Origin: Draconibacterium orientale
Lineage (GTDB): Bacteria; Bacteroidota; Bacteroidia; Bacteroidales; UBA1556
Length of the DNA stretch: 33,698 nt
Direction of reading: 5' to 3'
Assembly: GCA_020718275.1 (NCBI GenBank)
Contig: DYSI01000023.1
Location: forward strand, 1-33,698
Positions within the stretch are counted from its first letter, which is position 1. The number at the start of each line of letters is the position of its first letter. Both the position numbers and the translations under genes were made by a program. Positions 431 to 27,946 of the stretch are shown piece after piece. The notes below the pieces were generated by a model. The model made no database searches and was not told the DNA's origin. It saw nothing but the letters and a program-made list of their open reading frames with translations.

Positions 431-493
431 ATGAAGCAATTTCTACTTTTATTAAGCTTAATCTTGACTTTTGCCTTTAGCGTAAAATCACAA
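431..493 (+). other. Predicted Sec signal peptide of the giant protein
   Basis: MKQFLLLLSLILTFAFSVKSQ: basic start, hydrophobic core, small-residue cleavage region. Confidence 0.8.
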
Positions 494-3400
494 GTAAATG
501 TTTTCAGCGAGAATTTTGAAGGAACCAGTCTTTCCATGACCTCAAGTTCGATGACTGGGCTTAACAATTGGGCAATCAGTACAAGTCTCCATGCAGGAGG
601 TCTAAAATCAGACAGTGCTCGAGTAGCGGCAAGTGATACTACCTATTTGACCTCTTCAGCCTTTAGTACCACTGGATCTTATGTGGTGAATTTACAATTT
701 AAGCAAATTTGTAAGATACATTGGCTAGACGCCGCAATAGTAGAAGTTTCCAATGATAATGGAGCTACATGGACAAGACTCAATGGAATGTATTATCAGG
801 GTCTAGCTCAGTTTGGCAATATAGGAAATCGTTTTACGGCAGTTTCGTACGCAGTAGATTGGAATGCATCAGTAGACGCAGCTGTACCAACCAATACTTG
901 GTGGAAAACGGAGCAGTTTAATATTTCATCACTCGTTTCTAATTCCGCACAAGTGAAGGTTCGATTTGGATTAATTGATGGCGACGGAATGGGAGCCAAT
1001 TTTAATTATGGTTGGTTGTTAGATGATATTATTGTTAGTGTTCCTTCACAATTTGAAGCAACTGCAATGAGTTATAATTTACCCTATGCTTTGACCTCTG
1101 GTTGTGGACTTAGTAATGAAACCGTACAAATAAAAATTCTTAATTCGGGTGCTGGCATTATCAATGGTAATTTAACTGCTAGTTTTCAAAGAGATGGAAG
1201 TGCTGCTGTAACAGAGACGGTTTCACAATCAATCAATCCCACCGATTCTTTGCTTTACACCTTTAATACGGCTATCAATTTATATTCTTCCGTCGACACG
1301 CTTTATCCAATTAAGGTTTGGGTGAGTTTAGTTGGCGACCCAAATCAAACTAATGATACCATCATCGATACCCTTGCAAGCCGTGTGCCTTTGTCACCAC
1401 CTGTGATTACTGATCCCACCATTCCTTTTAATACCAGTGTTACCCTGCATGCAATCCATACTGACACTTTATTTTGGTATTCTGATCCTTTAGCACAAAA
1501 TCAGCTATCGATGGGGCAATATTTTACCACTCCTGTTTTATTAGATACCACTATTTTTTATGTTCAAGCTAGTGGTGCTATGCCAGATGTTAAAATCACT
1601 GAAATTGTTCAGTATGAAACAGGAATGGGGGCTACTAATCCATATCCGGCATGGATAACAGGAGTTGCAAGTGGTGATTTTGATGGCGTTGAAATTACAA
1701 ATCTTGGCAATGCACCCGCCAACTTATCAGGTTGGACACTCAATTTTTATAGTACTGCCACCTCTAATGGTACGAATGGTGCCTTTACTTTTCCTATTGG
1801 TACTATTTTACCCAGTGGAGGCATTTCGGTAATTGATATTAAAAACACTTCCGCAGTAAATAATCCAGCTAATTTTTATTTTGGTGCAGGTCTTACATCG
1901 GCAAACCCTCAGTCTAGCACTGTTCAAGCATACTATATTAAGGACCTGGGAGGTAATGTAATAGATGCAGTTTCAGCCAACGGACAAGTATTTGATGCTC
2001 TTGCTACTGGCGTTACCGCAGCCGATTGGGTAGGTGTTGTTCCCTCTTCATCGGGTAAGGCTGGTATTTCGAGACTAACGTCCGACTCCGACAGTGCCTC
2101 TGACTGGGGTATTGCCAGCATTAATCCTATAATGCAAAGTTTTGGTACTTTGAATCCGGGATTAACGATAGGACAAGGCTCTAGTGGAGTTGGTACTGCA
2201 TGTCCAAGTATAGCAAAGCCTGTGAAGGTAATGATATCGGGAATGCCGATTTATAATGCAGGAGTCACCAGTATAACAAGTCCTTCAGGTGCCTATACTC
2301 AGGGGTCTATTGTGCCTGTAACGGTTAATCTTAAGAATTTTTCGGGAGACACACTAAAGAAAGTTAATATTTCGTACAGTGTGAATGGCGTTTTGAAAAA
2401 CACTTTTGCATGGACTGGCAATTTGTTGTATAACCAAACTACATCAGTAACCATCGGTACCGATACCTTCAGTGGAGGAGCTTATAGTTATAAAGCATGG
2501 ACATGGTTGCCCAATGATAGTGCCGACCAATACACTTCAAATGATACTGCCACGGGCATAGCTTATGTTTGCCTGAGTGGTACTTTCACCTTAGGAGGTT
2601 CGAGCGCCGACTTTAGCGATTTTGCAGTTTTTAACTCTATTATTTCCAATGTGGGTGTTTGCGGACCAACGGTCATCAATATTCTTCCAGGCACTTATAA
2701 TGTTCAGCTAAATTATGGTCTTATCAATGGATCTTCTAACATCAATCAATTGACTTTTCAATCATCAACAGGAGTAAATACTGATGTGGTATTGCAATAT
2801 GCTGCTGCTAGTACTGCTGATAATTTCGTGGTTAAGTTGACTGGAACTCAATATGTGAATTTTAAAAACTTAACTATCGAAGCTAGCGGTACAACCTACG
2901 GCTATGCACTACTATTACTGAATGGAGCTAGTAATAACTCATTTGAGGGAAATATAATACGATCCATTACAACCGTTAGTTCATCTAGTAATCCTGTAAG
3001 ACTTTATGGTGGAGGAACTCATTATAATAGTTTCAAAAATAATATTATTAGCGGTGGGTTTTATGGAATTTATGCCTATGGCTCTAGTTCAACCGCTAAG
3101 ATCAATGGAAACCAATTTATTAATAATGATATTTCTGGTTTCTATTATTACGCTACTTACCTTTTTTATCATGATTCTTTGCAGTTTCTTAACAATAGTG
3201 TTCATGACGGAATCAATACTACTCAATACGGTATAAATGCAAATTATTGTGATAATTATTCCAATTTATCCAATAATAAGGTAGTCTTATTCCCATCCTC
3301 ATACGCCTATGCCATGCGAGTTGCTTATAGTAATTATACAAATCCAGCCTTGGGTAGAGTAATAGTATCCAATAACATGATAAGTATTGGTTCAGGTACT

Positions 3401-6400
3401 ATCACTAATTATGGATTGTATGTATTTTATTCAAGTAATACGCACGTATTGTACAATAGCATACATATCGAATCGGGCGGGGGAAGCAGTCGTGCACTTT
3501 ATCAAAATGGTACAACTACGGTTACGGGGCAAATTTTTAAGAATAATATTTTCTCCTCGAAAGATGGATTTGCGGCATACTTTAATACTCCAGCAAGCAT
3601 TAGTTATTGCGATTATAACGACTACTATTGTACCACTGCCACATTAGCTTATCATGGAGGGAATATTGCCACCCTGGCCGCATTGCAATTAGCAAGTGGA
3701 AAGGATTCAAACTCAGTTGCACTAGATCCATTATACACTTCAATTAGTGATTTACATGCTAGTGCTTTGGGTATTAATGCCGCAGGAAGCCCTGATTCAT
3801 TGGTAAGTATAGATTATGATGGTTTCCCACGGGATGTTACCACTCCTGATATCGGTGCCGATGAGTTTATTATGTGGAATGATGATGCTGGGGTTTTAGC
3901 CTTAGTTTCTCCTGTAATTGCTTGTCCAGCTTCTAGCTCATCCATTGAAGTTAAGGTAAGAAATTTTGGTATTGATACGCTGTTTACGGCCACAGTTAAT
4001 TGGAAAGTTAATGGTATAGCTCAAACTTCGTATATTCTTTCTGATACACTTTTACCTGGGCAAACCGCCAACGTAGTTTTAGGGAATTATGTATTTCAAG
4101 ATTCTATCAATTATGTTTTAAATTTTTGGACCACCAATCCTAATGGAGTGGTTGATTTGAATAACCCAAACGATTCCTTGAATTTCCCATTTTTTAAAGC
4201 AGCCTTAGCCGGAGGAACCTATACCATTGGCTCAAATGCTAGCAATGATTTTCCAAATTTTGCAACTGCCATTGATTATTTGACGAATTACGGCATTTGT
4301 GGATCGGTAGTATTCAATGTTGATTCAGGAACTTATAATGGTAATCTGCTTATTTCTAATATTTTAGGTACTGATGCAAATAATACTATCACTTTCCAAT
4401 CAACGACCTCAGACAGTACCGATGTTAAGATAGTTTCATCTTCAGCAAGTACCATTAGCTTTATCGGGGCCTCATATATCAATTTTAAAAACATTTCAGT
4501 TATAAATAGTTCGGCTAGTCAGGCGGTTGCAATAAAGAATGGAACTCATCACCTTGCATTTAATAATTGTGTTATTCGAGTGCCGCTTTCTACTTCTAGT
4601 GCTGTTGCTCCGATTTATAATTATACGGGAATAGATTATAACTTAACCTTTACAAATAATGCCATCATTGGCGGTTATTATGGGGTTTATAATTATGGAG
4701 GTTCATCCACTAGTTTAGAAAGCTCCAATGTTTTTAGCAATAATATTATTTCTGATTTTTATTTATCTGGATTGTATAATTATTATCAAGATTCAATTAT
4801 AATTAACGGAAACAGAATAAGTAATTCTGCGGCTTCTGCTACCAATTACGGTATCTATGCATATTATTGTGATGATGCCATCGAAGTAAGTAATAATGTG
4901 ATTAAGTTGAACGGTGCTGGAACACAATATGGGGTGTATTTATATTATTGTGATGCTAGCGTTGGCAGCCATGCAGTAGTAGCAAACAATATGGTTTCGA
5001 TAATTAATAATAGTACCAAATACGGAATTTATTCTGCCTATGGTACCAATCATGATTATTTTTACAATTCCATTAATATATCAGGAACAGGTGCTTCTTA
5101 TGCGATGTATTTTAATGGCTATGCTGGTCATAGTATTAAAAATAATAATTTAATCAATGGAGGCACTGGAACTGGCACTCGTTACGCGCTTTATTTGAAT
5201 AGCGCTTATCCACCAGCATCTGATTATAATAATATCTATTGTGCCAATGGCAATGCTGCTTTTTGGGTCTCAGCCAAAGCAACTTTAGCTGATTATCAAA
5301 CAGCCTCAAGTCTTGATGCTCATTCGGTAAGTCTTCCAGTAGTATTTTTTGCGCCAAACAATCTACATACCGTCAGTTCAACCGTTAATGGCTATGGTAC
5401 ACCAGTCTATATCACCCATGATATCGATGGAGATTTACGAAATACCTTAACACCAGATATTGGCGCTGATGAATTTGATCCACCAGCACAAGAAGCAGCT
5501 TTGATTGAAGTTTTTGAACCCACTACCAGTTGCGGAATGGATACTGTTGAAGTAAAAATAAAAATTGCCAACTTCGGATTAGATACTATCTCGGGTAATT
5601 TAACGGCAAACTATTCAATACTAGGCAATGCCAATGTGGTGACCGAGAACATAAGCACCATGATTTTACCCGGTGATACGCTTGATTATACCTTTATTGG
5701 TAAGGCAATTATTAGTTCGCCAATTGATTCTACCTTTTATCTAAACAGTTGGATTAGCCTCACTGGTGATCCAATTCAGCTAAATGATACAATCTTAAAA
5801 GTATTTAATAATAATACGATTCCTTCGGCACCAGTAATTAGTAGTTCAACAACTACTTATGGCAATACCGCTTTGATATCGGCAACGGCTATAGGAACTA
5901 TCTTATGGTTCGCAACGGATACTTCGATGTCTCCAGTCGGACTTGGAACTTCATACACCACACCTGTGCTATTCGATACCACTCAGTTTGTTGCCAAGGT
6001 GCTTTCGACGAATGGTTGCTATAGCGATTATTCATATACCAATGTCATCGTAACTGGAATTCCAACTGGTGAAGTAGGAATAGCTGAGATTTTGGTAAAT
6101 TCCGGTTGTGGATTAGACACCAACGAATCGGTTACGATTCGCGTATTTAACAATGGAACACAAACGGTAAATACAAACTTAACGGCTCGTTATAAGATTA
6201 ATGCCAATGCCTATACAAGTTTTGAAACAATCAATATTCCAGTGCCATCGCAAGACACCATTGATTATGTATTTATCAATAAGGCCGATCTTTACGCATA
6301 CAATGCAGATACTGTTTTCAAAATTAAAGCAGAAGTGCTATTAACGGGCGACCCATATCATACTAACGATACCTTAACTTTATCTGGCATTGAATCTAAT

Positions 6401-9400
6401 TTAACAGCGGTTGATCCAATAGTAGTTTCTCCTCAATCGCTTGCCTATGGTGCCTCAGTTACTTTGACTGCCACTAGTCTCGATACCTTAATTTGGTATG
6501 GAACAGATACTTCCACAGTGGAGGATTATGTAGGTCATTATTATACAACGCCTTACCTCTATGCAGATACTACCTTCTACGTAGAAGCAGTTTTGGGAGC
6601 TAGCTATGGCGCTGCTGGAACTAATATTGCACCATTAGCAACCGCTAGTGCAAGTAATTGCAGTACTGGGCCTTGCGGTGCACTGAATGATTTGAATTTA
6701 GGCGTTTGTGGAACTCAATTGATGTGGATTTCAACTGCTTCGCCACCATCTTCGGTTCCTCATACCGATTATATAGATTTTGAATGGATCGCACCACAAT
6801 CGATTAGCGGAATGAAAATTCATCATGCACAAACGACTACTCGATTACTTTCTGGCGGAGAATTATATTATTGGAACGGTAGTGCTTGGGTATATTTCTA
6901 CACCTTCACCAATTTGCCAATGCAATGCGAAAATATGGTGATGTTCCCTTTAGTAACTACTACCAAGTTTAGGATTACCACTTTCCAAACGAGTGGAACT
7001 CAATTATCGAATCCTAATTTTAGAGAAATTGAAGTTTTTGCTGCTGCTACTGGTTGCGCAAGTAATAGGATACCAATACAAATCAATGTGGCATCGCCAC
7101 CAGCAGTAGATGCCGGTATTTATTCTATTGACTCTCCTTCATTAAGTTCACCATCAGGAGTAAATACGCCAATTCAAGTGAAGCTTAAAAACTTTGGAAC
7201 TTCAACGCTTACTAGTGCTAGCATCATTTATTTCTTAGATAATGTGCCAAAAGACACCTTTGCTTGGACCGGAAGTTTAGCGTTCAATCAGGTTTCATCT
7301 CCAATTACTATTTCATCCGATGTTTTTGTTGGAGGTTTACATACCATAATGGCTAAAGTGATTAACCCAAATGGCATAGTGTCAGGGGTAAATCCTAACG
7401 ATTCAATGATACTTGCTTTCTCAGCTTGTATGAATGGAAACTATACCGTTGGAGGGGCAAGTGCGGATTTTGTGGATATCTATACTGCCATTTCAGCAGT
7501 ACAAACTGCTGGTGTTTGTGGGCATGTGGTATTTTTACTCATCCCAGATACTATTAACGGTCAATTGATAATCCCTGCAATTGCTGGTTTGGATTCTAAT
7601 AATACCGTAACTTTCCAATCTGCTACAGGTGATAGTACCGATTTTGTTATTCAATATGCAGCTACTGGAACTGCAGATAATTACGTAGTGCGCTTTGCCG
7701 CCAGCAAGTACATCACGCTCCGTAAAGTTACTATAAAAGCGCTTGGTGCTACTTATGCCTATGGGGTGGAACTCACAGGTGGAGCTAGTTACAATACGGT
7801 TGAGAATTGCTATATTTATTCTGCAGTTTCAACTTCATCCTACGGACGCCCACTGGTTATTACTGGTGGAACTAATAATAAATTTAACACCATTAGCAAT
7901 AATATCATCGATGGTGGTTATTACGGTATTTATTTGAGCGGGTCTAGTTCATCGGCGCTTGATAAAGGGAATAAAATTTTGAATAACGACATCAAGAATT
8001 TTTACTACTACGGTCTTTACTTGTATTATCAGGATTCAGTACAAGCCATTGGAAACTATATTCATGATGGTACAAATTTGTATCAGTATGGTATGTATAC
8101 TTATTACATATTCAATGGATTTGATATTAGTAAGAATATTATTGATTTGAATCCAGCATCTTATGCCTATGCCATGCGCATCTACTTTGCTAATTATTAT
8201 TCAATTACTACAAATCCTCGAAATGTAGGAAAAGTATATAACAATATGATAAGCATCAATAGTGGAACTGGAATTAATTATGGTTTGTATGATTACTATT
8301 GTGATAAGGTTGAATATTATTTTAATACTGTAAATATTTCTAGCGGAGATTTGAGCTCTAGGGCATTATATCAATACAATACAAGCTCCAATACGATTGG
8401 ACAAACCCATATCAATAACATTTATTCTAATACCTCTGGTGGTTACGCAGCTTATTACGGCACCCCTGTTTCGGTAAATAATGCTGATTATAACAACTAC
8501 TTTGTCACTGGAACAAAACTAGCTTATTGGAATGGTGATAAGGTCGATTTATCAGCATTACAAACCGCTAGCGGATATGATACTCATTCTAAATCAGTTG
8601 ATCCAACGTATTACTCCAACACTAATTTACACTCCAACGCTCTGCTTTTGGATGGTGCCGGATTTAGTATTAGTGGAATTACTGAAGATATTGATGGACA
8701 TTTAAGGTCTACTACTCCCGATATTGGCGCAGATGAATTTACAACATCACCCAATGATGCCGGAGTTTTTGGAATATCAAGCTCTACCACTCCTGCCTTA
8801 TCAGGAACTCATCCCTTGAAGGTGAAAATTAAAAACTATGGTACTGACACCTTGCAAACAGTTAATGTGAACTTCTCCTTGAATGGCGTACTAAATACTA
8901 CTCCATTAACTTGGAATGGAAGTTTGCTCCCAGGGGATACTGTTCTTAATCTGAATGTTGCCAATGGTAGTTTTATCACTGGAAACAATCTAGTGAAAGC
9001 CTGGACATCTATGCCTAATGGCGTAATCGATGGTCAAACCATGAATGATACTTTGCACACCAGTATTTATGGTTGTAGTAATTTCTTACATGGAACCTAT
9101 ACTGTAGGGGGCGCCACAGCCGATTACCCCACTATTAGTAGTGCCGTTGATGCCCTTAATATTTGCGGGATTGATAGTGCGGTAGTTTTCTTGATTAATC
9201 CAGGAAATTATAACGAGCAATTTGAGCTTACAGCCATTAGCGGAGCAGATAGTTTGAATACCGTTACTTTTACCTCCTCACTTTACGATAGTACGAGTGT
9301 AAATATCAATTATAGTCCCGGCGGATTAAAACCCTATGTGGTTTCCCTTAATGGGACTGACTATGTACACTTTAAAAACCTAAGTATTGAAGTAACCAAC

Positions 9401-12163
9401 AATGCCTATACAATTTTGATAAAAGGTGGTGCCTCACACAATGTTTTTGAAAGTAATATTCTAAGAACTCCGATTACCACAAGTTCCACTGCTGCTGTTA
9501 TTTATTCTAGTACCGATAACGATAATTATAACACTTTCCGTTATAATTCAATTGAAAATGGTTACTATGCTGTTTATTGGAGAGGTTCTTCTACCACTTC
9601 ATTGGAATCTAAAAATATATTTGAATACAATAACATTACTGGATATTACTATTATGGATTGTATTTATATTATCAAGATGCGCCTACGGTAGTTGGAAAC
9701 TATGTTGCGGATGGTGCGGCAAATTATGGCTACGGTTTATATATGTATTATTGCGACAATAACGTATTGGTAAGTAATAATATCCTGGATTTGACTCCTG
9801 CTAGCGTTCACTATGGATTATATATGAATAGTTGCGACGGTTCTTCCAGCTTGCCAGGGAGGGTTTTCAATAATTCCATTAGCATTTCCTCAGGTTCAGG
9901 AGCGAGCTATGGGATGTACATTTATAACAATTCGTATGTTGAATTTGCGCACAATTCTATCAATGTTTCAGCGGGTTCTGCAACGAGTAGGGCAGTTTAT
10001 GTTACAAGTGGTAGTAATCTATCGTTCTTGAATAACAACTTAGTAAGTGTTGCCTATAATTATTATGTCAGCACGGCTTCGGCGGTTGTTACTTCAGATT
10101 ATAACAATTTCTACGGAAGCTCTGCGAGTGTTTTCGCCTACTGGGGTAGTGCGGTGGCAGATTTAACCGCCTTACAATCAGCATCAGGCAAAGACATGCA
10201 TTCAATAAGTACTGACCCAATGTTTTATGCCCCAAGTGACTTGCATGTAATATCACCAGTTTTGAACGCTGCAGCAACGCCTATTTCGTATGTTACCAGC
10301 GATATTGATGGCCAAGTGCGTAATGCCACTACCCCCGATATTGGTGCCTATGAGTTTACCCCAACACAATGGGATGTGTATGCAACTAGTTTAGTAAGAC
10401 CAATAAATACTTTTGGTCCTGCTATTAATAATACCGTGGTTGAATTCACTTTTAGAAATATCGGTTTAGACACAGTCACTTCGGTGACGGTTTCCTATCG
10501 CTACAACGGCCTTACTACTACCCAAAATTGGGGGGGAATGTTAGCGCCTGGCGCCGATACTAGCTACACTTTTCCTGGTGGATTTACGGCTATAGCTGGT
10601 ACAAAACCACTTCTTGTATATGTAAATTTGGTTAATGACGCCAACGCGGCTAATGATACTATTTTTGCTACCTACACAGGTGTTCCGTTCCTCAGTCCTA
10701 GCTATGTTGATAATTTTGATGTTCAACCTTTTATATGGGCACAAGAGGGCAATGTTTGGGAGCATGGTACTCCAGCCGGAAGTGTTATTACCGTCCCTCA
10801 TTCCGCTCCTAATGTATGGATGACTGAGTTAAGCAGTAATTATCCTTCTTCTACCAATTCGTATTTGTACAGTCCATATTTTAATTTCGCTATTGATACG
10901 GCAATGACTATGAGTTTCTGGCAATATCGAAACTTGTTGTCCAATGATGGAGTAAATATCGAATATACCAAAGACAATGGTGTGAGCTGGGTTTCTTTAG
11001 GATTCCTAAATGATCCTGCTTCACCTACCAACTGGTACAATACTAGTGCAAATGGAATCGACATGTTCTCGGGAACATCAAGTGGCTGGGAATTTCAAAG
11101 TTATCATTTGGATGCCTTCAATTATGAGCCAATGCCTGTCCAATTCCGCTTCCATTTAGTTTCGGATGGTTCAGGAACTGCTGATGGCTATGCATTGGAT
11201 GATTTCAAGATCACACTTCCATTGATACAACATGATGCAGGAGTAACTTCAATTGAGCTACCACAAGCAACGACGCCTATTGGCGCTGGTGTTACAGTAA
11301 AGGTGAAAGTTAAAAATTATGGATATGATCCTTTAACTTTAATTCCAATACAGTACGATGTCAATAATAGTGGTAACCCTGTTTCTGAAAATATTGTACT
11401 TACCGGCTCAGGCTTGCTTCCTGATTCAACTTATGAATTTATTTTTGCTACCTCCTTCATAAGTCCAGTTTCTAGTTACAGTTTGTGTGTGCGCACCTTA
11501 GTTAGTGGTGACTTATATTCTAATAATGACGGGCAGTGTGCAACCTTTGGTACTACACCTGGTGCTTTGGATGCCGCTATTGATCATGTTAATCCTAAAA
11601 ATGTTGTCTCTTTTGGTCACCCAAATACGGTAACGGCTTGGATATTTAATAGAGGAACAACGCCTTTAAGTTCGGTGGATGTTAAGTACAGCCTAAATCA
11701 TCTTAATGATGTTGTGCAAAATTGGACTGGAACAGCTTTGAATTATGGCGACTCAGCAATGATTACCTTTACGCAACCATTTAATGCTCCTTTAGGAAAT
11801 TTCATATTGTGCGTTGAAGCTTTGCTACCGAATGATGTGAATACCGCAAATGACGAAAGTTGCGAAGCATTGATTTCCTCTGGCTTGTCTGAGATTACTG
11901 AACAAGGCTTCAAGCTCTTCCAAAACGTTCCTAACCCAGCGAATAGCCAAACTCAAATCGCCTTTGAAATACCGCAATCTGGTGCTGTTTCAGTCGAAAT
12001 TGCTGATGTTGCTGGTCGCGTATTGATGACTAATGAAAGTAATTTCACGGCTGGACATCATGTATTGGAAATGGATTTGAAGAATTTTGCCAATGGAGTG
12101 TATTATTACACCCTAGTCTTCGATCATCAAAAATTAACACGCAAAATGATTATTGCCAAATAA
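431..12163 (+). CDS. Giant secreted multidomain repeat protein with T9SS type A C-terminal sorting domain (adhesin/surface-protein-like; MAM-like, lamin-tail-like, discoidin-like, CARDB-like and parallel beta-helix modules)
   Basis: 3910-aa uninterrupted ORF; N-terminal signal peptide MKQFLLLLSLILTFAFSVKSQ; C-terminus 'FKLFQNVPNPANSQTQIAFEIP...ADVAGRVL...GVYYYTLVFDHQKLTRKMIIAK' is typical of T9SS sorting domains; four internal modules end in DIDGxxRxxxTPDIGA(D/Y)EF. Confidence 0.93.
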   Translation: MKQFLLLLSLILTFAFSVKSQVNVFSENFEGTSLSMTSSSMTGLNNWAISTSLHAGGLKSDSARVAASDTTYLTSSAFSTTGSYVVNLQFKQICKIHWLDAAIVEVSNDNGATWTRLNGMYYQGLAQFGNIGNRFTAVSYAVDWNASVDAAVPTNTWWKTEQFNISSLVSNSAQVKVRFGLIDGDGMGANFNYGWLLDDIIVSVPSQFEATAMSYNLPYALTSGCGLSNETVQIKILNSGAGIINGNLTASFQRDGSAAVTETVSQSINPTDSLLYTFNTAINLYSSVDTLYPIKVWVSLVGDPNQTNDTIIDTLASRVPLSPPVITDPTIPFNTSVTLHAIHTDTLFWYSDPLAQNQLSMGQYFTTPVLLDTTIFYVQASGAMPDVKITEIVQYETGMGATNPYPAWITGVASGDFDGVEITNLGNAPANLSGWTLNFYSTATSNGTNGAFTFPIGTILPSGGISVIDIKNTSAVNNPANFYFGAGLTSANPQSSTVQAYYIKDLGGNVIDAVSANGQVFDALATGVTAADWVGVVPSSSGKAGISRLTSDSDSASDWGIASINPIMQSFGTLNPGLTIGQGSSGVGTACPSIAKPVKVMISGMPIYNAGVTSITSPSGAYTQGSIVPVTVNLKNFSGDTLKKVNISYSVNGVLKNTFAWTGNLLYNQTTSVTIGTDTFSGGAYSYKAWTWLPNDSADQYTSNDTATGIAYVCLSGTFTLGGSSADFSDFAVFNSIISNVGVCGPTVINILPGTYNVQLNYGLINGSSNINQLTFQSSTGVNTDVVLQYAAASTADNFVVKLTGTQYVNFKNLTIEASGTTYGYALLLLNGASNNSFEGNIIRSITTVSSSSNPVRLYGGGTHYNSFKNNIISGGFYGIYAYGSSSTAKINGNQFINNDISGFYYYATYLFYHDSLQFLNNSVHDGINTTQYGINANYCDNYSNLSNNKVVLFPSSYAYAMRVAYSNYTNPALGRVIVSNNMISIGSGTITNYGLYVFYSSNTHVLYNSIHIESGGGSSRALYQNGTTTVTGQIFKNNIFSSKDGFAAYFNTPASISYCDYNDYYCTTATLAYHGGNIATLAALQLASGKDSNSVALDPLYTSISDLHASALGINAAGSPDSLVSIDYDGFPRDVTTPDIGADEFIMWNDDAGVLALVSPVIACPASSSSIEVKVRNFGIDTLFTATVNWKVNGIAQTSYILSDTLLPGQTANVVLGNYVFQDSINYVLNFWTTNPNGVVDLNNPNDSLNFPFFKAALAGGTYTIGSNASNDFPNFATAIDYLTNYGICGSVVFNVDSGTYNGNLLISNILGTDANNTITFQSTTSDSTDVKIVSSSASTISFIGASYINFKNISVINSSASQAVAIKNGTHHLAFNNCVIRVPLSTSSAVAPIYNYTGIDYNLTFTNNAIIGGYYGVYNYGGSSTSLESSNVFSNNIISDFYLSGLYNYYQDSIIINGNRISNSAASATNYGIYAYYCDDAIEVSNNVIKLNGAGTQYGVYLYYCDASVGSHAVVANNMVSIINNSTKYGIYSAYGTNHDYFYNSINISGTGASYAMYFNGYAGHSIKNNNLINGGTGTGTRYALYLNSAYPPASDYNNIYCANGNAAFWVSAKATLADYQTASSLDAHSVSLPVVFFAPNNLHTVSSTVNGYGTPVYITHDIDGDLRNTLTPDIGADEFDPPAQEAALIEVFEPTTSCGMDTVEVKIKIANFGLDTISGNLTANYSILGNANVVTENISTMILPGDTLDYTFIGKAIISSPIDSTFYLNSWISLTGDPIQLNDTILKVFNNNTIPSAPVISSSTTTYGNTALISATAIGTILWFATDTSMSPVGLGTSYTTPVLFDTTQFVAKVLSTNGCYSDYSYTNVIVTGIPTGEVGIAEILVNSGCGLDTNESVTIRVFNNGTQTVNTNLTARYKINANAYTSFETINIPVPSQDTIDYVFINKADLYAYNADTVFKIKAEVLLTGDPYHTNDTLTLSGIESNLTAVDPIVVSPQSLAYGASVTLTATSLDTLIWYGTDTSTVEDYVGHYYTTPYLYADTTFYVEAVLGASYGAAGTNIAPLATASASNCSTGPCGALNDLNLGVCGTQLMWISTASPPSSVPHTDYIDFEWIAPQSISGMKIHHAQTTTRLLSGGELYYWNGSAWVYFYTFTNLPMQCENMVMFPLVTTTKFRITTFQTSGTQLSNPNFREIEVFAAATGCASNRIPIQINVASPPAVDAGIYSIDSPSLSSPSGVNTPIQVKLKNFGTSTLTSASIIYFLDNVPKDTFAWTGSLAFNQVSSPITISSDVFVGGLHTIMAKVINPNGIVSGVNPNDSMILAFSACMNGNYTVGGASADFVDIYTAISAVQTAGVCGHVVFLLIPDTINGQLIIPAIAGLDSNNTVTFQSATGDSTDFVIQYAATGTADNYVVRFAASKYITLRKVTIKALGATYAYGVELTGGASYNTVENCYIYSAVSTSSYGRPLVITGGTNNKFNTISNNIIDGGYYGIYLSGSSSSALDKGNKILNNDIKNFYYYGLYLYYQDSVQAIGNYIHDGTNLYQYGMYTYYIFNGFDISKNIIDLNPASYAYAMRIYFANYYSITTNPRNVGKVYNNMISINSGTGINYGLYDYYCDKVEYYFNTVNISSGDLSSRALYQYNTSSNTIGQTHINNIYSNTSGGYAAYYGTPVSVNNADYNNYFVTGTKLAYWNGDKVDLSALQTASGYDTHSKSVDPTYYSNTNLHSNALLLDGAGFSISGITEDIDGHLRSTTPDIGADEFTTSPNDAGVFGISSSTTPALSGTHPLKVKIKNYGTDTLQTVNVNFSLNGVLNTTPLTWNGSLLPGDTVLNLNVANGSFITGNNLVKAWTSMPNGVIDGQTMNDTLHTSIYGCSNFLHGTYTVGGATADYPTISSAVDALNICGIDSAVVFLINPGNYNEQFELTAISGADSLNTVTFTSSLYDSTSVNINYSPGGLKPYVVSLNGTDYVHFKNLSIEVTNNAYTILIKGGASHNVFESNILRTPITTSSTAAVIYSSTDNDNYNTFRYNSIENGYYAVYWRGSSTTSLESKNIFEYNNITGYYYYGLYLYYQDAPTVVGNYVADGAANYGYGLYMYYCDNNVLVSNNILDLTPASVHYGLYMNSCDGSSSLPGRVFNNSISISSGSGASYGMYIYNNSYVEFAHNSINVSAGSATSRAVYVTSGSNLSFLNNNLVSVAYNYYVSTASAVVTSDYNNFYGSSASVFAYWGSAVADLTALQSASGKDMHSISTDPMFYAPSDLHVISPVLNAAATPISYVTSDIDGQVRNATTPDIGAYEFTPTQWDVYATSLVRPINTFGPAINNTVVEFTFRNIGLDTVTSVTVSYRYNGLTTTQNWGGMLAPGADTSYTFPGGFTAIAGTKPLLVYVNLVNDANAANDTIFATYTGVPFLSPSYVDNFDVQPFIWAQEGNVWEHGTPAGSVITVPHSAPNVWMTELSSNYPSSTNSYLYSPYFNFAIDTAMTMSFWQYRNLLSNDGVNIEYTKDNGVSWVSLGFLNDPASPTNWYNTSANGIDMFSGTSSGWEFQSYHLDAFNYEPMPVQFRFHLVSDGSGTADGYALDDFKITLPLIQHDAGVTSIELPQATTPIGAGVTVKVKVKNYGYDPLTLIPIQYDVNNSGNPVSENIVLTGSGLLPDSTYEFIFATSFISPVSSYSLCVRTLVSGDLYSNNDGQCATFGTTPGALDAAIDHVNPKNVVSFGHPNTVTAWIFNRGTTPLSSVDVKYSLNHLNDVVQNWTGTALNYGDSAMITFTQPFNAPLGNFILCVEALLPNDVNTANDESCEALISSGLSEITEQGFKLFQNVPNPANSQTQIAFEIPQSGAVSVEIADVAGRVLMTNESNFTAGHHVLEMDLKNFANGVYYYTLVFDHQKLTRKMIIAK
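1583..2137 (+). other. Lamin-tail-like (LTD) domain inside the giant protein
   Basis: 'VKITEIVQY...DFDGVEITNLGNAPANLSGWTLNFYS...FPIGTILPSGGISVIDIKN' matches the LTD pattern (EI.NLG...L.GW.L......G..L..G). Confidence 0.65.
2570..3868 (+). repeat. Parallel beta-helix / choice-of-anchor-Q-like module, copy 1 (type A)
   Basis: CLSGTFTLGGSSADFSDF ... NNSFEGNIIRS ... FYGIYAYGSSSTAKINGNQFINNDISGFYYYATYLFYHDS ... SSRALYQ ... DGFPRDVTTPDIGADEF. Confidence 0.8.
4202..5476 (+). repeat. Parallel beta-helix module, copy 2 (type B)
   Basis: ALAGGTYTIGSNASNDFPNF ... YYGVYNYGGSSTSLESSNVFSNNIISDFYLSGLYNYYQDS ... YGIYAYYCDD ... YGVYLYYCDA ... DIDGDLRNTLTPDIGADEF. Confidence 0.8.
6620..7054 (+). other. Discoidin / F5/8 type C-like domain inside the giant protein
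   Basis: 'TNIAPLATASASNCSTGPCGALNDLNLG...YIDFEWIAPQSISGMKIHHAQT...YYWNGSAWVYF...TTKFRITTFQTSGTQLSNPNFREIEVFA' follows the discoidin fold pattern. Confidence 0.55.
7427..8740 (+). repeat. Parallel beta-helix module, copy 3 (type A')
   Basis: CMNGNYTVGGASADFVDI ... YYGIYLSGSSSSALDKGNKILNNDIKNFYYYGLYLYYQDS ... SSRALYQ ... DIDGHLRSTTPDIGADEF. Confidence 0.8.
9074..10357 (+). repeat. Parallel beta-helix module, copy 4 (type B')
   Basis: CSNFLHGTYTVGGATADYPTI ... SSTTSLESKNIFEYNNITGYYYYGLYLYYQDA ... YGLYMYYCDN ... DIDGQVRNATTPDIGAYEF. Confidence 0.8.
11906..12160 (+). other. T9SS type A C-terminal sorting domain
   Basis: GFKLFQNVPNPANSQTQIAFEIPQSGAVSVEIADVAGRVLMTNES...NFANGVYYYTLVFDHQKLTRKMIIAK at the extreme C-terminus. 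Confidence 0.9.
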
Positions 12164-12358: not shown

Positions 12359-13378
12359 CTAATCGATAATCGTGTTCCATTGGTATTTATCTTCTACGGT
12401 TCCCAATTGAATTCCTTGCAAAGTATTATAGAGTTGCGTTGAAATGGGGCCCGCTTTACCGTCTTTGCAATAAAGATAATCTTGGCCAGTATCCCGATCG
12501 TGAATTCGTTTAATAGGAGAAATAACCGCTGCCGTACCGCAAGCGCCTATTTCGTCAAAAGTGGATAATTCTTCTACCAACACATGACGTCTTTCAACGC
12601 TAAGTCCCAAATCTTCAGCTAGGGTACGTAAGCTCATATTGGTAATGGAAGGAAGAATAGAACCACTATCTGGCGTGATGTATTTGCCGTCGCGAATTCC
12701 GAAGAAATTGGCTGGTCCAGCTTCATCGATATGCGTTTTTGTTTTGGCATCAAGGAAAATACTTGCTGCATATCCATCATGATGTGCTCTCACGCCGGCT
12801 TTCAAGCTGGCGGCATAGTTACCACCTACTTTGGCATGTCCTGTTCCTAGCGGGGCTGCACGGTCAAAATCGCGTACAATTTCCATATCCACTGGATTAA
12901 AGCCTTCTTTGAAATAGGGTCCTACTGGCGTTACAAATATGATAAATAAATATTCAGCAGCCGGACGAACGCCTACTTGTGGCCCTGATCCGATTAGTAA
13001 AGGTCTAATATACAATGATGAACCACTTCCAAAAGGAGGAACAAACTCTTCATTTAACTTTATCACTTTAACTAATGCTTTTAAGAACAACTCAGACGGA
13101 ACTGGCTCCATCAGAATGGCATCTGCAGAGGCTTGTAGTCGCTTGGCATTTTCTTCCCAACGGAAAACACGTAATTTACCATCAACTCCTCTGAATGCTT
13201 TCAAACCCTCAAAGGCCTCTTGGCCATAATGCAGAGCAGTGGCAGCCATGTGAATATTGATAGTTTCTTCAGAACTTACTTCTAAAGCGCCCCATTTGCC
13301 GTTTTTGAAATAAGTACGAACATTATAGTTTGTAGGAGTATAACCAAAAGTTAGATTTTTCCAATCGATTGCTGCCAT
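12359..13378 (-). CDS. ilvE: Branched-chain amino acid aminotransferase
   Basis: 339 aa; 'ALHYGQEAFEGLKAFRG', 'SLYIRPLLIGSGPQVGVRPA', 'VGGNYAASL', 'DEIGACGTAAVISPI' typical of class-IV PLP branched-chain aminotransferases. Confidence 0.95.
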   Translation of the reverse strand: MAAIDWKNLTFGYTPTNYNVRTYFKNGKWGALEVSSEETINIHMAATALHYGQEAFEGLKAFRGVDGKLRVFRWEENAKRLQASADAILMEPVPSELFLKALVKVIKLNEEFVPPFGSGSSLYIRPLLIGSGPQVGVRPAAEYLFIIFVTPVGPYFKEGFNPVDMEIVRDFDRAAPLGTGHAKVGGNYAASLKAGVRAHHDGYAASIFLDAKTKTHIDEAGPANFFGIRDGKYITPDSGSILPSITNMSLRTLAEDLGLSVERRHVLVEELSTFDEIGACGTAAVISPIKRIHDRDTGQDYLYCKDGKAGPISTQLYNTLQGIQLGTVEDKYQWNTIID

Positions 13379-24613: not shown

Positions 24614-27600
24614 CTAGAGTGTTCGTTTAACTTCTTTTTGGTCGTAGCCTTCGATGATGTCGCCTACTTCGATATTGTTGTAATTATCGATATTTAAACC
24701 ACATTCAAATCCTTTGCTGACTTCTTTAGCATCGTCTTTGAAACGCTTAAGTGAACCTAAAATACCAGAGTAAATTACAATTCCATCACGGATAATTCGA
24801 ATTTTCGAATTCCGCTGAATTTTACCATCCAGCACATAGCAACCAGCCACCGTACCTACCTTGGTAATTTTGAACACTTCGCGCACTTCTACGCTACATA
24901 ATATTTCTTCAACCAAATCAGGTGATAACATACCTTCCATGGCCGCTTTTACTTCGTCAATTACATTGTAGATAATCGAGTAGATGCGGATATCAATTTG
25001 CTCTTTTTCAGCAAGTTGACGTGCCGAAACGCTTGGTCGTACTTGGAATGCAACAATAATAGCATCCGAAGCGCTAGCTAGAATTACGTCGGCTTCGTTC
25101 ACTTGTCCAACCGATTTATGGATGATATTTACTTGGATTTCAGCAGTACTCAATTTCACTAATGAATCGGCAAGGGCTTCAACGGAGCCGTCAACGTCAC
25201 CTTTGATAATTACGTTAAGTTCTTTGAAATCACCAACGGCTAAGCGGCGACCGATTTCATCAAGGGTAATATGTTTTTGAGTACGAACGCCTTGTTCTCT
25301 TTGTAACTGTTCGCGTTTAAGGGCAATATTGCGAGCTTCTTTTTCATCTGCCATCACACGAAACGAATCACCTGCTTGTGGGGCACTATTCAAACCGAGT
25401 AAAAGCACAGGGGTTGCTGGACCTGCCTCTTTCACCACTTTGTTTCGTTCGTTATACATGGCTTTTACCCGACCATAAGTGGTTCCAGCAAGCACTACAT
25501 CACCCACTTTTAGGGTTCCGTTTTGGACTAATATTTTTGAAACATATCCTTTTCCTTTATCAAGGGAAGCTTCCAAGATGGTACCCACCGCAAACCGATT
25601 GGGGTTAGCTTTTAAGTCAAGCATTTCGGCTTCCAGTAAGATTTTTTCCATCAAGGTATCAACCCCCATTCCGTGCTTTGCAGAGATGTCTTGCGACTGA
25701 TATTTTCCTCCCCAATCCTCAACCAAGAGATTCATACTGGCCAAACCTTCTTTTATTTTTTCTGGTTGTGCATTCGGTTTATCTACTTTGTTGATTGCGA
25801 ATATGATAGGTACTCCTGCTGCTTGAGCGTGCGTTATTGCTTCCTTGGTTTGTGGCATGATGGCGTCGTCAGCAGCAATCACAATGACTGCGATATCTGT
25901 AATTTTTGAACCCCTTGCACGCATAGCGGTAAAGGCTTCGTGGCCTGGTGTATCTAGGAAAGTGATTTTTTCTCCAGAAACTAATTCTACTTCATACGCG
26001 CCAATGTGTTGCGTAATACCGCCAGCTTCACCAGCTATAACATTGGTTTTGCGAATATAATCCAAAAGTGAAGTTTTACCATGATCCACATGTCCCATTA
26101 CGGTAACGATTGGATTACGAGGTTTCAAATCTTCTTCTTTGTCTACAATATCTTGTATGGATTCTTCTACTTCCTTGGCGCCTACAAACTCAACCTTGAA
26201 TCCAAATTCACCCGCTACAATACTGATTGTTTCAGCATCTAGACGTTGGTTGATGGATACAAACATGCCTAATGACATACAAACTTTAATAATTTCGTTA
26301 ACAGAGGTGTTCATCATACTCGCTATTTCATTAGCGCTTACAAACTCTGTAACTTTTATAATTTGCTTATTAGCAATAGCTTCTTCCATTTCTCTTTGGG
26401 TGTTCTGAGAAACAGCATCTCTTTTTTGACGGCGATATTTTGCTCCTTTGCTCTTGGTGGTGTCACTCAATCGAGCCAAGGTTTCTTTAATTTGTTTTGA
26501 AATATCTTCTTCGGAAAGTTCGGGTTTTGGCTCGATTTTCTTCTTCAGACGGTTCTTATTGTTATTATTAGCCGTGTTATTAGTATTATGGTGGTTTGGT
26601 CTATTGTCACCTGGTTTTTTGGCGGCATCGGGAGCCACCACATCGGTCTTAATTCTTCTGCGTTTCTTACGGTCGTTTTCTTTGGCTTTTTTCTGTGGCG
26701 AATCAGAGGAGGAACCAACTGGCAACTTCTTCTTTTCGGCACTTTTAGGATCTGGAAGGTCGATTTTTCCAACCACGCGTGGCCCTGATAATTGATCCAC
26801 TTTAGGTTTTATAAAACGGGTATCCGTGGAATCTGTTTTGGCATTGGCACCGCCAGCGGCCGCATTCGGATTATCTTTTCTGAATTCGGGGCGTTGCTGA
26901 TTATGTTGTTGTGGGCGCTGTTGTTGTTGAAATGAAGGCCGACTTTGCTGTTCGGCTTTTCTTTTAGCAAGGGCTACTTCTTTTTTGGCGGCTTCCTCTG
27001 CTTCGCGTTGTTTGCGAGATTTTTTTGGAGGTCTGGTTTTTTGGTTCATGCTATCCAAATCCAACATTCCCAACACTTTTGGGCCTTTCAGACCGACGGC
27101 TTCGGCGCTTTCTTCGGCAGTGAAAGTTCGTCCTTTTTCATGCACTTTTGGCGCAGCAGGAGCTTCTTCTTTATCTTCAGCTTTAGGAGCCACTTCCACT
27201 TTTACTTCATCAATTTGGCTTGTAGTGGATGCTTTAATTGGTTCTTCTGCTTCAATGATAGGAGGAACGTCTACTTTTTCAGCTACATGAGTTTTCACTT
27301 CTTTAGCAACTTGTTCCGTTACCTCTTTGACTTCTGGTTTCTCTATCTTTTCAGGGCTTGGAATCTCAACTTTTTCAATCGTAGGTTTTACTTCTTCAAC
27401 TGGTTTTTCAGTGGCTACAATGAATTCTGGTTTCTCATTCTTTTTTTCTTCGGCCACTTCACTTGCTTTTGGTGGCGCTTGTTTAGCAGGCTCAGCAGCG
27501 ATAGGTTCTACTGTTTTTTGTTCGCTGATTGGAGGTTTGGGAGGCTCAACCGCTTCTTGTTTTGGTGCACGTTTAGATTCAAATTTCGACAAGTCGATTT

Positions 27601-27946
27601 TGTCAACCACTTTAGGTTTAGGTATTTCGGTGGCGATAGTTTTAGGCTGCTCCACGGGTGCAGTAGGCTCTGCTGGGGTATCGTTTTCCTCAGGACCGTC
27701 ATGATCAGTTTTTTTGACTTTGCGACCCCGATATTCTTCCACAAGTTTTTCCTTTTGCTCTTTGACCGACCGATCGACCTTAAAGTTTTGCTCCAATAGA
27801 TTGTACATCTCAGGAGTAATTTTTGCGTTGGGGTTGCTTTCAACCACAAAGCCTTTTTTCTCAAGGAATTCAACCACCGTAGCAGTTCCCAAATTGAATT
27901 CCCCGGCTACTTTTCTCAATCGTTGTACTTGATCAGATGCTGACAT
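24614..27946 (-). CDS. infB: Translation initiation factor IF-2
   Basis: 1110 aa; '[36 protein letters not shown]', '[16 protein letters not shown]', 'NKVDKP'; N-terminal IF2_N motif and charged linker. Confidence 0.97.

Follow-up and report, generated by a model that had tools for sequence, protein, structure and literature searches.

The window examined here, 33,698 nucleotides of DNA from Draconibacterium orientale, carries a giant open reading frame whose 3910-aa product we regard, with somewhat better than even confidence, as a surface adhesin without enzymatic activity that is exported through the type IX secretion system (T9SS), its four beta-helix rods having arisen from the doubling of a linker-A-linker-B pair. 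In the mechanism that we propose, this very long protein would leave the cell through the T9SS, after which its sorting domain would be removed and the chain anchored at the surface. The four right-handed beta-helix modules would form rigid rods, rich in Tyr and Asn and connected through CARDB linkers, and would derive from a pair whose doubling predates the divergence of the genes compared here. Adhesion may then occur through the beta-helix faces together with exchangeable accessory domains (lamin-tail-like, CBM32-like and MAM) situated upstream of the A modules.

Pfam and NCBIfam searches with the 3910-aa protein, which is encoded by a single ORF, revealed beta-helix (four stretches), three Ig_7, CARDB, lamin-tail and reelin-subrepeat-like matches, as well as a T9SS type A sorting domain (Table 1). 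Domain boundaries were placed by hand and with profiles built from the protein itself, and since BLASTP of the whole chain against itself returned no off-diagonal pairs, the comparison was made by segments. The beta-helix profile PF13229 matched four stretches at 65.1 bits against a cut-off of 25.9, and the fold was predicted with a pLDDT of 90.6. Among the linkers, C3 alone exceeded the CARDB cut-off (25.7 bits against 22.7), with a Foldseek match to 3idu at a TMt of 0.68; the other linkers were assigned to CARDB through similarity, which is weak for some of them.

Table 1. Features of the giant ORF, listed in their order along the chain from the N terminus (C, CARDB-like; H, beta-helix)
Feature	Position	Strand	Evidence
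Giant ORF with T9SS sorting domain	431..12163	+	3910 aa; Por_Secre_tail aa 3834-3908
Nt, N-terminal domain	488..1045	+	weak likeness to C-terminal MAM-like domain, Z 8.9
Head 1, CARDB-like C1 + Ig_7	1046..1576	+	Ig_7 PF19081; hd1 clade 100/99 with G008, G006
Accessory X, lamin-tail-like (LTD)	1577..2245	+	PF00932 1.1e-9, above cut-off; 69% identity in G006:C44
C2, CARDB-like linker before A	2246..2572	+	C2-C6 39%, Z 23
H1, beta-helix module type A	2573..3871	+	PF13229; AF2 pLDDT 90.6 (H1-C3-H2 model)
C3, CARDB linker between A and B	3872..4207	+	CARDB 1.4e-5; Foldseek 3idu, 2kl6
H2, beta-helix module type B	4208..5476	+	segment alignments, indels, AF2 model
Head 2, CARDB-like C4 + Ig_7	5477..6064	+	best Ig_7 stretch aa 1798-1875; hd2 clade 98/96
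Head 3, CARDB-like C5 + Ig_7	6065..6643	+	hd3 clade 95/95
Accessory Y, likely F5/8 type C / CBM32-like galactose-binding fold	6644..7105	+	weak PF22633; Foldseek CBM32
C6, CARDB-like linker before A'	7106..7432	+	segment alignment
H3, beta-helix module type A'	7433..8740	+	48% to H1; insertions common to H1
C7, CARDB-like linker between A' and B'	8741..9085	+	segment alignment
H4, beta-helix module type B'	9086..10357	+	h4 clade 100/97 across genomes; deletions common to H2
C-terminal frame: C8, MAM/reelin-subrepeat-like domain, C9, C10	10358..11884	+	PF21471; kept in family members
T9SS type A sorting domain	11885..12160	+	TIGR04183 4.7e-9, PF18962 3e-9

The C-terminal sorting domain exceeds the curated cut-offs of both TIGR04183 (36.1 bits against 23) and PF18962 (37.5 against 27), and the genome, which is 71% complete, holds 47 such domains above cut-off. 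It also encodes a C25 protein of 1688 aa without a listed sorting domain; the SprA_N profile found no match in this 71%-complete genome, and a control search likewise matched nowhere. Judged by eye, the N terminus of the giant protein resembles a signal peptide. T9SS cargo of Porphyromonas is anchored via a sortase-like step (PMC4560394), and we assume that the 3910-aa protein would be anchored in the same way.

Beta-helix modules of this kind occur in 22 of the 60 genomes searched (its own and relatives), including all ten other members of the genus. Three genes elsewhere share the four-module frame (G008:C4, G004:C57 and G003:C64, given as genome and contig), and it is present in part, broken by contig ends, in G006 and G002; other family members carry one to three modules within the same N- and C-terminal frame, Nt being kept at their N terminus. 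A tree of the C-terminal frame sets the genes of G003 and G004 apart from the lineage of the window, G008 and G006, and places them together with G002. Two contigs of G006 (C28, L043, and C44, L057) both terminate within a beta-helix module and may be two parts of one gene split at the helix; the G006 modules flanking its heads 2 and 3 are sisters (95/88). At least three further giant ORFs with beta-helices, of 3201, 4523 and 2875 aa (G000:C33, C67 and C16; L048-L050), are encoded in the genome from which the window comes, and both positions of the G000:C33 pair form their own clade with relatives. In a more distant relative (L041, G041:C29) the two modules are sisters (100/99), the product of a separate tandem doubling that differs from the A/B alternation in the window.

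Homology among the four modules of the window is certain at the level of sequence, with all six pairs reaching Z scores of 45-64 against shuffles. In global alignment H1-H3 is the closest pair (48.4% identity), followed by H3-H4 (42.5%), H2-H4 (42.4%), H2-H3 (40.5%), H1-H2 (40.3%) and H1-H4 (40.0%); H2-H4 thus ties with H3-H4, and identity alone separates 1+3, not 2+4. The first-pass annotation had proposed two subtypes alternating as A-B-A'-B'. Every motif that it quoted (e.g. QYAAxxTADNxVV for modules 1 and 3, and SST(S/T)SLESxNxFxxNxI for 2 and 4) was found in the modules concerned, and the alternation itself was confirmed by indel columns and constrained likelihoods. Its figure of ~4.4 kb for the repeat is the length of the unit and not the period, which is about 4.87 kb: matching parts (H1/H3, C2/C6, C3/C7 and H2/H4) lie 4.85-4.88 kb apart, with 4860 nt between H1 and H3 and 4878 nt between H2 and H4.

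Indels were compared over 16 modules, the four positions of four genes from four genomes (the window gene, WIN, and those of G008, G004 and G003). Column 86 of the alignment is a gap in 0/8 of the h1 and h3 modules and 8/8 of h2 and h4, column 146 in 0/8 and 7/8 respectively, while residues occupy columns 267-268 and 335 in 6/8 of h1 and h3 and 0/8 of h2 and h4. No indel column with a difference of four or more favoured 12|34 or 14|23 in these 16 modules. Because the four genes have a common history, each such indel represents about one event and not eight. Outside the four genes the state of column 86 varies, and certain A-like modules from other proteins have the gap too. Two loop insertions, near NYYSY...G and QYNTTSNT.G, characterise most A-like modules, and module 3 of G003 and G004 is a separate lineage that lacks the A insertions. 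Recent duplication was ruled out as the source of the repeat, DNA repeats being merely 20-45 nt long and codon-aligned nucleotide identity between H1 and H3 only 54%, as was an assembly artefact, given the divergence of the modules and the recurrence of the layout in three further genomes. A recent homogenising event between H1 and H3 of the window was likewise ruled out, WIN_h1 pairing with G008_h1 and WIN_h3 with G008_h3. The A-B-A'-B' layout is conserved and, as read from these comparisons, old, having been in place before the compared genes split.

The grouping of modules 1+2 and 3+4, which had been named in advance as the contrary outcome, is disfavoured by 40 or 48 log-likelihood units. 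For the 16 modules the free tree has an lnL of -12542.5; 13|24 lies 2.3 units lower (p-AU 0.57), 14|23 21.1 lower (p-AU 0.13) and 12|34 48.0 lower (p-AU 0.054, falling to 0.033 when the modules of each position are kept monophyletic). Under a mixture model 12|34 is rejected (40 log-likelihood units, p-AU 0.004), with 13|24 and 14|23 both unrejected. The expectation that 1+3 and 2+4 would cluster in a module tree with homologues was borne out in part: the 13|24 arrangement carries only the small cost given above, but 2+4 is not a single clade in the free trees. In a 63-module tree, whose bootstrap had not settled, the h4 (100/97) and h2 (96/94) modules form clades, as does ((WIN_h1,G008_h1),(WIN_h3,G008_h3)) (93/92); the placement of WIN_h2 shifts among free trees. 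For a set of 36 modules, the likelihood was higher with h2 and h4 constrained to join than in the free search (+17.5, p-AU 0.81), and therefore the free search was stuck. The signal separating 13|24 from 12|34 is not uniform and comes mostly from mid-module (columns 130-258 and 302-344). Clustering of 2+4 is weak in the free trees, and it is the indels and constrained likelihoods that argue for it.

Two subtypes in alternation could also have come about stepwise, through copying or conversion of modules within the protein (e.g. of A from one to the other of positions 1 and 3 in the lineage of the window and G008) instead of through one pair event, and we regard this as a possible but doubtful history. 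It would accommodate the sister relationship of h1 and h3 in WIN and G008, the separate clade formed by the h3 modules of G004 and G003 (100/99), the 35 units that it costs to force each position to be monophyletic, the pairing of G006c28_h1 with G006c28_h2 (95/88), and the range of one to four module copies within the same frame. Against this, h3 of all four genes agrees with the pattern at columns 86 and 146, and forcing the h3 modules of all four together is not rejected (p-AU 0.31). From these sequences we infer doubling of a pair rather than stepwise copying.

The first-pass annotation had drawn the duplicated unit more widely, to include a GCGL/WY head and an accessory domain, and this wider unit is not supported. 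Both of the heads that it paired (~1046 and ~6071) exist, but a third CARDB-Ig7 head (5477-6064) had been omitted. The three heads form positional clades, no pairing of which is preferred by the head tree (p-AU 0.34 for hd1+hd3 and 0.38 for hd1+hd2), and C1 is nearer to C4 (40% identity) than to C5 (36%). Detection of head 1 was confined to the WIN/G008/G006 lineage; the four-helix genes of G003 and G004, in which it was undetected, have at its location a different region with a MAM domain at its end. Comparison of accessory domains X and Y of the window gave no similarity (Z 0.3), and the content of both slots varies between species, the X slot holding LTD (window and G006), a domain without family assignment (G008) or MAM (G003 and G004), and the Y slot a CBM32-like domain (window) or one that we term SYPxPY (G008, G003 and G004). 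Because the heads are unpaired and X and Y are dissimilar and species-variable, the linker-A-linker-B pair is the best-supported duplicated unit, and the simplest reading leaves heads and accessory domains outside it.

Duplication of the entire 4.4 kb unit would then call for later replacement of the accessory domains and insertion of an extra head between the copies, which we consider unlikely. The head-accessory-CARDB-A-CARDB-B order does recur in both halves, and the proposed match of the linkers in register holds to the extent that C6 is the best match of C2 and that the preA1 and preA2 linkers group in WIN and G008 (80/83); C3-C7 identity (34%) is no higher than that of C2-C7 (38%). Against duplication of the entire unit, preA1 groups with mid2 instead of preA2 in G003 and G004; the lack of any preference of hd1 for hd3 over hd2, the closer match of C1 to C4 than to C5, the distribution of head 1 and the dissimilarity of X and Y also weigh against it.

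Returning to the linker-A-linker-B pair, the heads and accessory domains appear, from their distribution, to have been exchanged independently of it. Matches to LTD all lie within very long ORFs, none shorter than 1055 aa and several belonging to the family, and occupy more than one slot. Head 1 and LTD (window 1046-2245) are ~69% identical to their counterpart in L057 (G006:C44), and the neighbouring H1 just 47%; judged by these identities, conservation is stronger, or sharing more recent, for the head-accessory cassette than for the adjoining rod. The SYPxPY domain, which has a SYPxPY...KEQYLI-like start, is located at L037:7517-8107 (G008), L038:8040-8627 (G004) and L039:7644-8228 (G003), and had no good Pfam or NCBIfam match in the searches of L037 and L038; in G001 a domain resembling it takes up the X slot (L042:2842-3762). 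It is a tentative suggestion that A-B-A'-B' serves as a fixed scaffold that retains its rods, linkers and ends, with binding domains swapped between species at the X and Y slots, such that new ligand specificities may be acquired through cassette exchange.

The giant gene and its surroundings give different pictures of relatedness. A neighbouring protein, judged ilvE-like by eye (window 12359-13378), shares 89% identity with its counterpart in G003 and 77% with that in G008, whereas corresponding modules of the window and these two genomes share ~50% identity or less. By the similarity of this neighbour G003 is nearest to the window, which conflicts with the giant-gene tree, where G008 and G006 are. 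The two genes lie on separate contigs in G003, G004 and G008, and the discrepancy could stem from fast change, from paralogy or from transfer. Elsewhere in the window, a 284-aa ORF (26945-27799, +) lies antisense to an 1110-aa ORF resembling infB by eye and is probably spurious.

An AlphaFold2 model of H1-C3-H2, built from 18 sequences (pTM 0.58), agrees with a pair of beta-helices linked through a CARDB beta-sandwich, how the rods lie relative to each other not being fixed by the model. Foldseek matched it to PL6 lyase, glycosidase and AlgE epimerase beta-helices, PfbA and CARDB structures. Conservation across 65 modules falls on an Asn ladder and on Gly and Tyr, charged residues being conserved solely within the C-terminal cap (LH...DxDGxxR..PDIGADE), and Tyr makes up 8-12% of module composition. 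It is very improbable that the modules are active polysaccharide lyases or epimerases and not binding rods: a PL6 alginate lyase is the top Foldseek match (6.6e-8), but TM-scores are low, Lys and Arg together account for only 3-5% of residues, and no conserved Lys/Arg outside the cap, nor a catalytic cluster, was seen among the 65 modules. Accessory Y did not reach the Pfam cut-off for an F5/8 type C domain (PF22633, 14.3 bits against 27.8, E 0.067), and its top Foldseek matches, obtained with a query model of pLDDT only 57, are nearly all of the F5/8C/CBM32 kind (~1e-5). A CBM32-like galactose-binding fold is likely for Y, whose resemblance to CBM32 would point to sugar binding. Taken as a whole, the protein most likely functions as a surface adhesin.

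Comparable proteins are known. PfbA of Streptococcus pneumoniae (PDB 4mr0; Foldseek 8e-4) is a surface right-handed beta-helix adhesin without obvious catalytic machinery (PMC3718772), but it has one beta-helix core domain, attaches to a Gram-positive cell wall and lacks CARDB linkers and A/B modules. Adhesin-like proteins of methanogens (PMC11532034) are similarly long and combine several beta-helix and Ig-like (Big) domains with occasional carbohydrate-binding domains, differing in being archaeal and membrane-anchored and in their linkers. The C-terminal TIGR04183/PF18962 sorting domain is shared with T9SS type A cargo of Bacteroidota (PMC4560394, PMC8545088), relative to which the 3910-aa protein is very large. 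Choice-of-anchor Q (NF041518) and PF13229 proteins share the DIGADEF cap motif and beta-helix repeats with the window protein, which unites four modules of two subtypes in a single chain. Our literature search found no paper describing this domain combination.

The window protein illustrates well a class of modular surface proteins that is already known; it is no new type of system, and it leaves general views unchanged. What it offers is a worked example of how a giant bacterial surface protein may grow, with a structural module pair doubled and small putative binding domains swapped at fixed slots, and its conserved rod and variable slots would allow one to test whether the accessory domains set ligand specificity.
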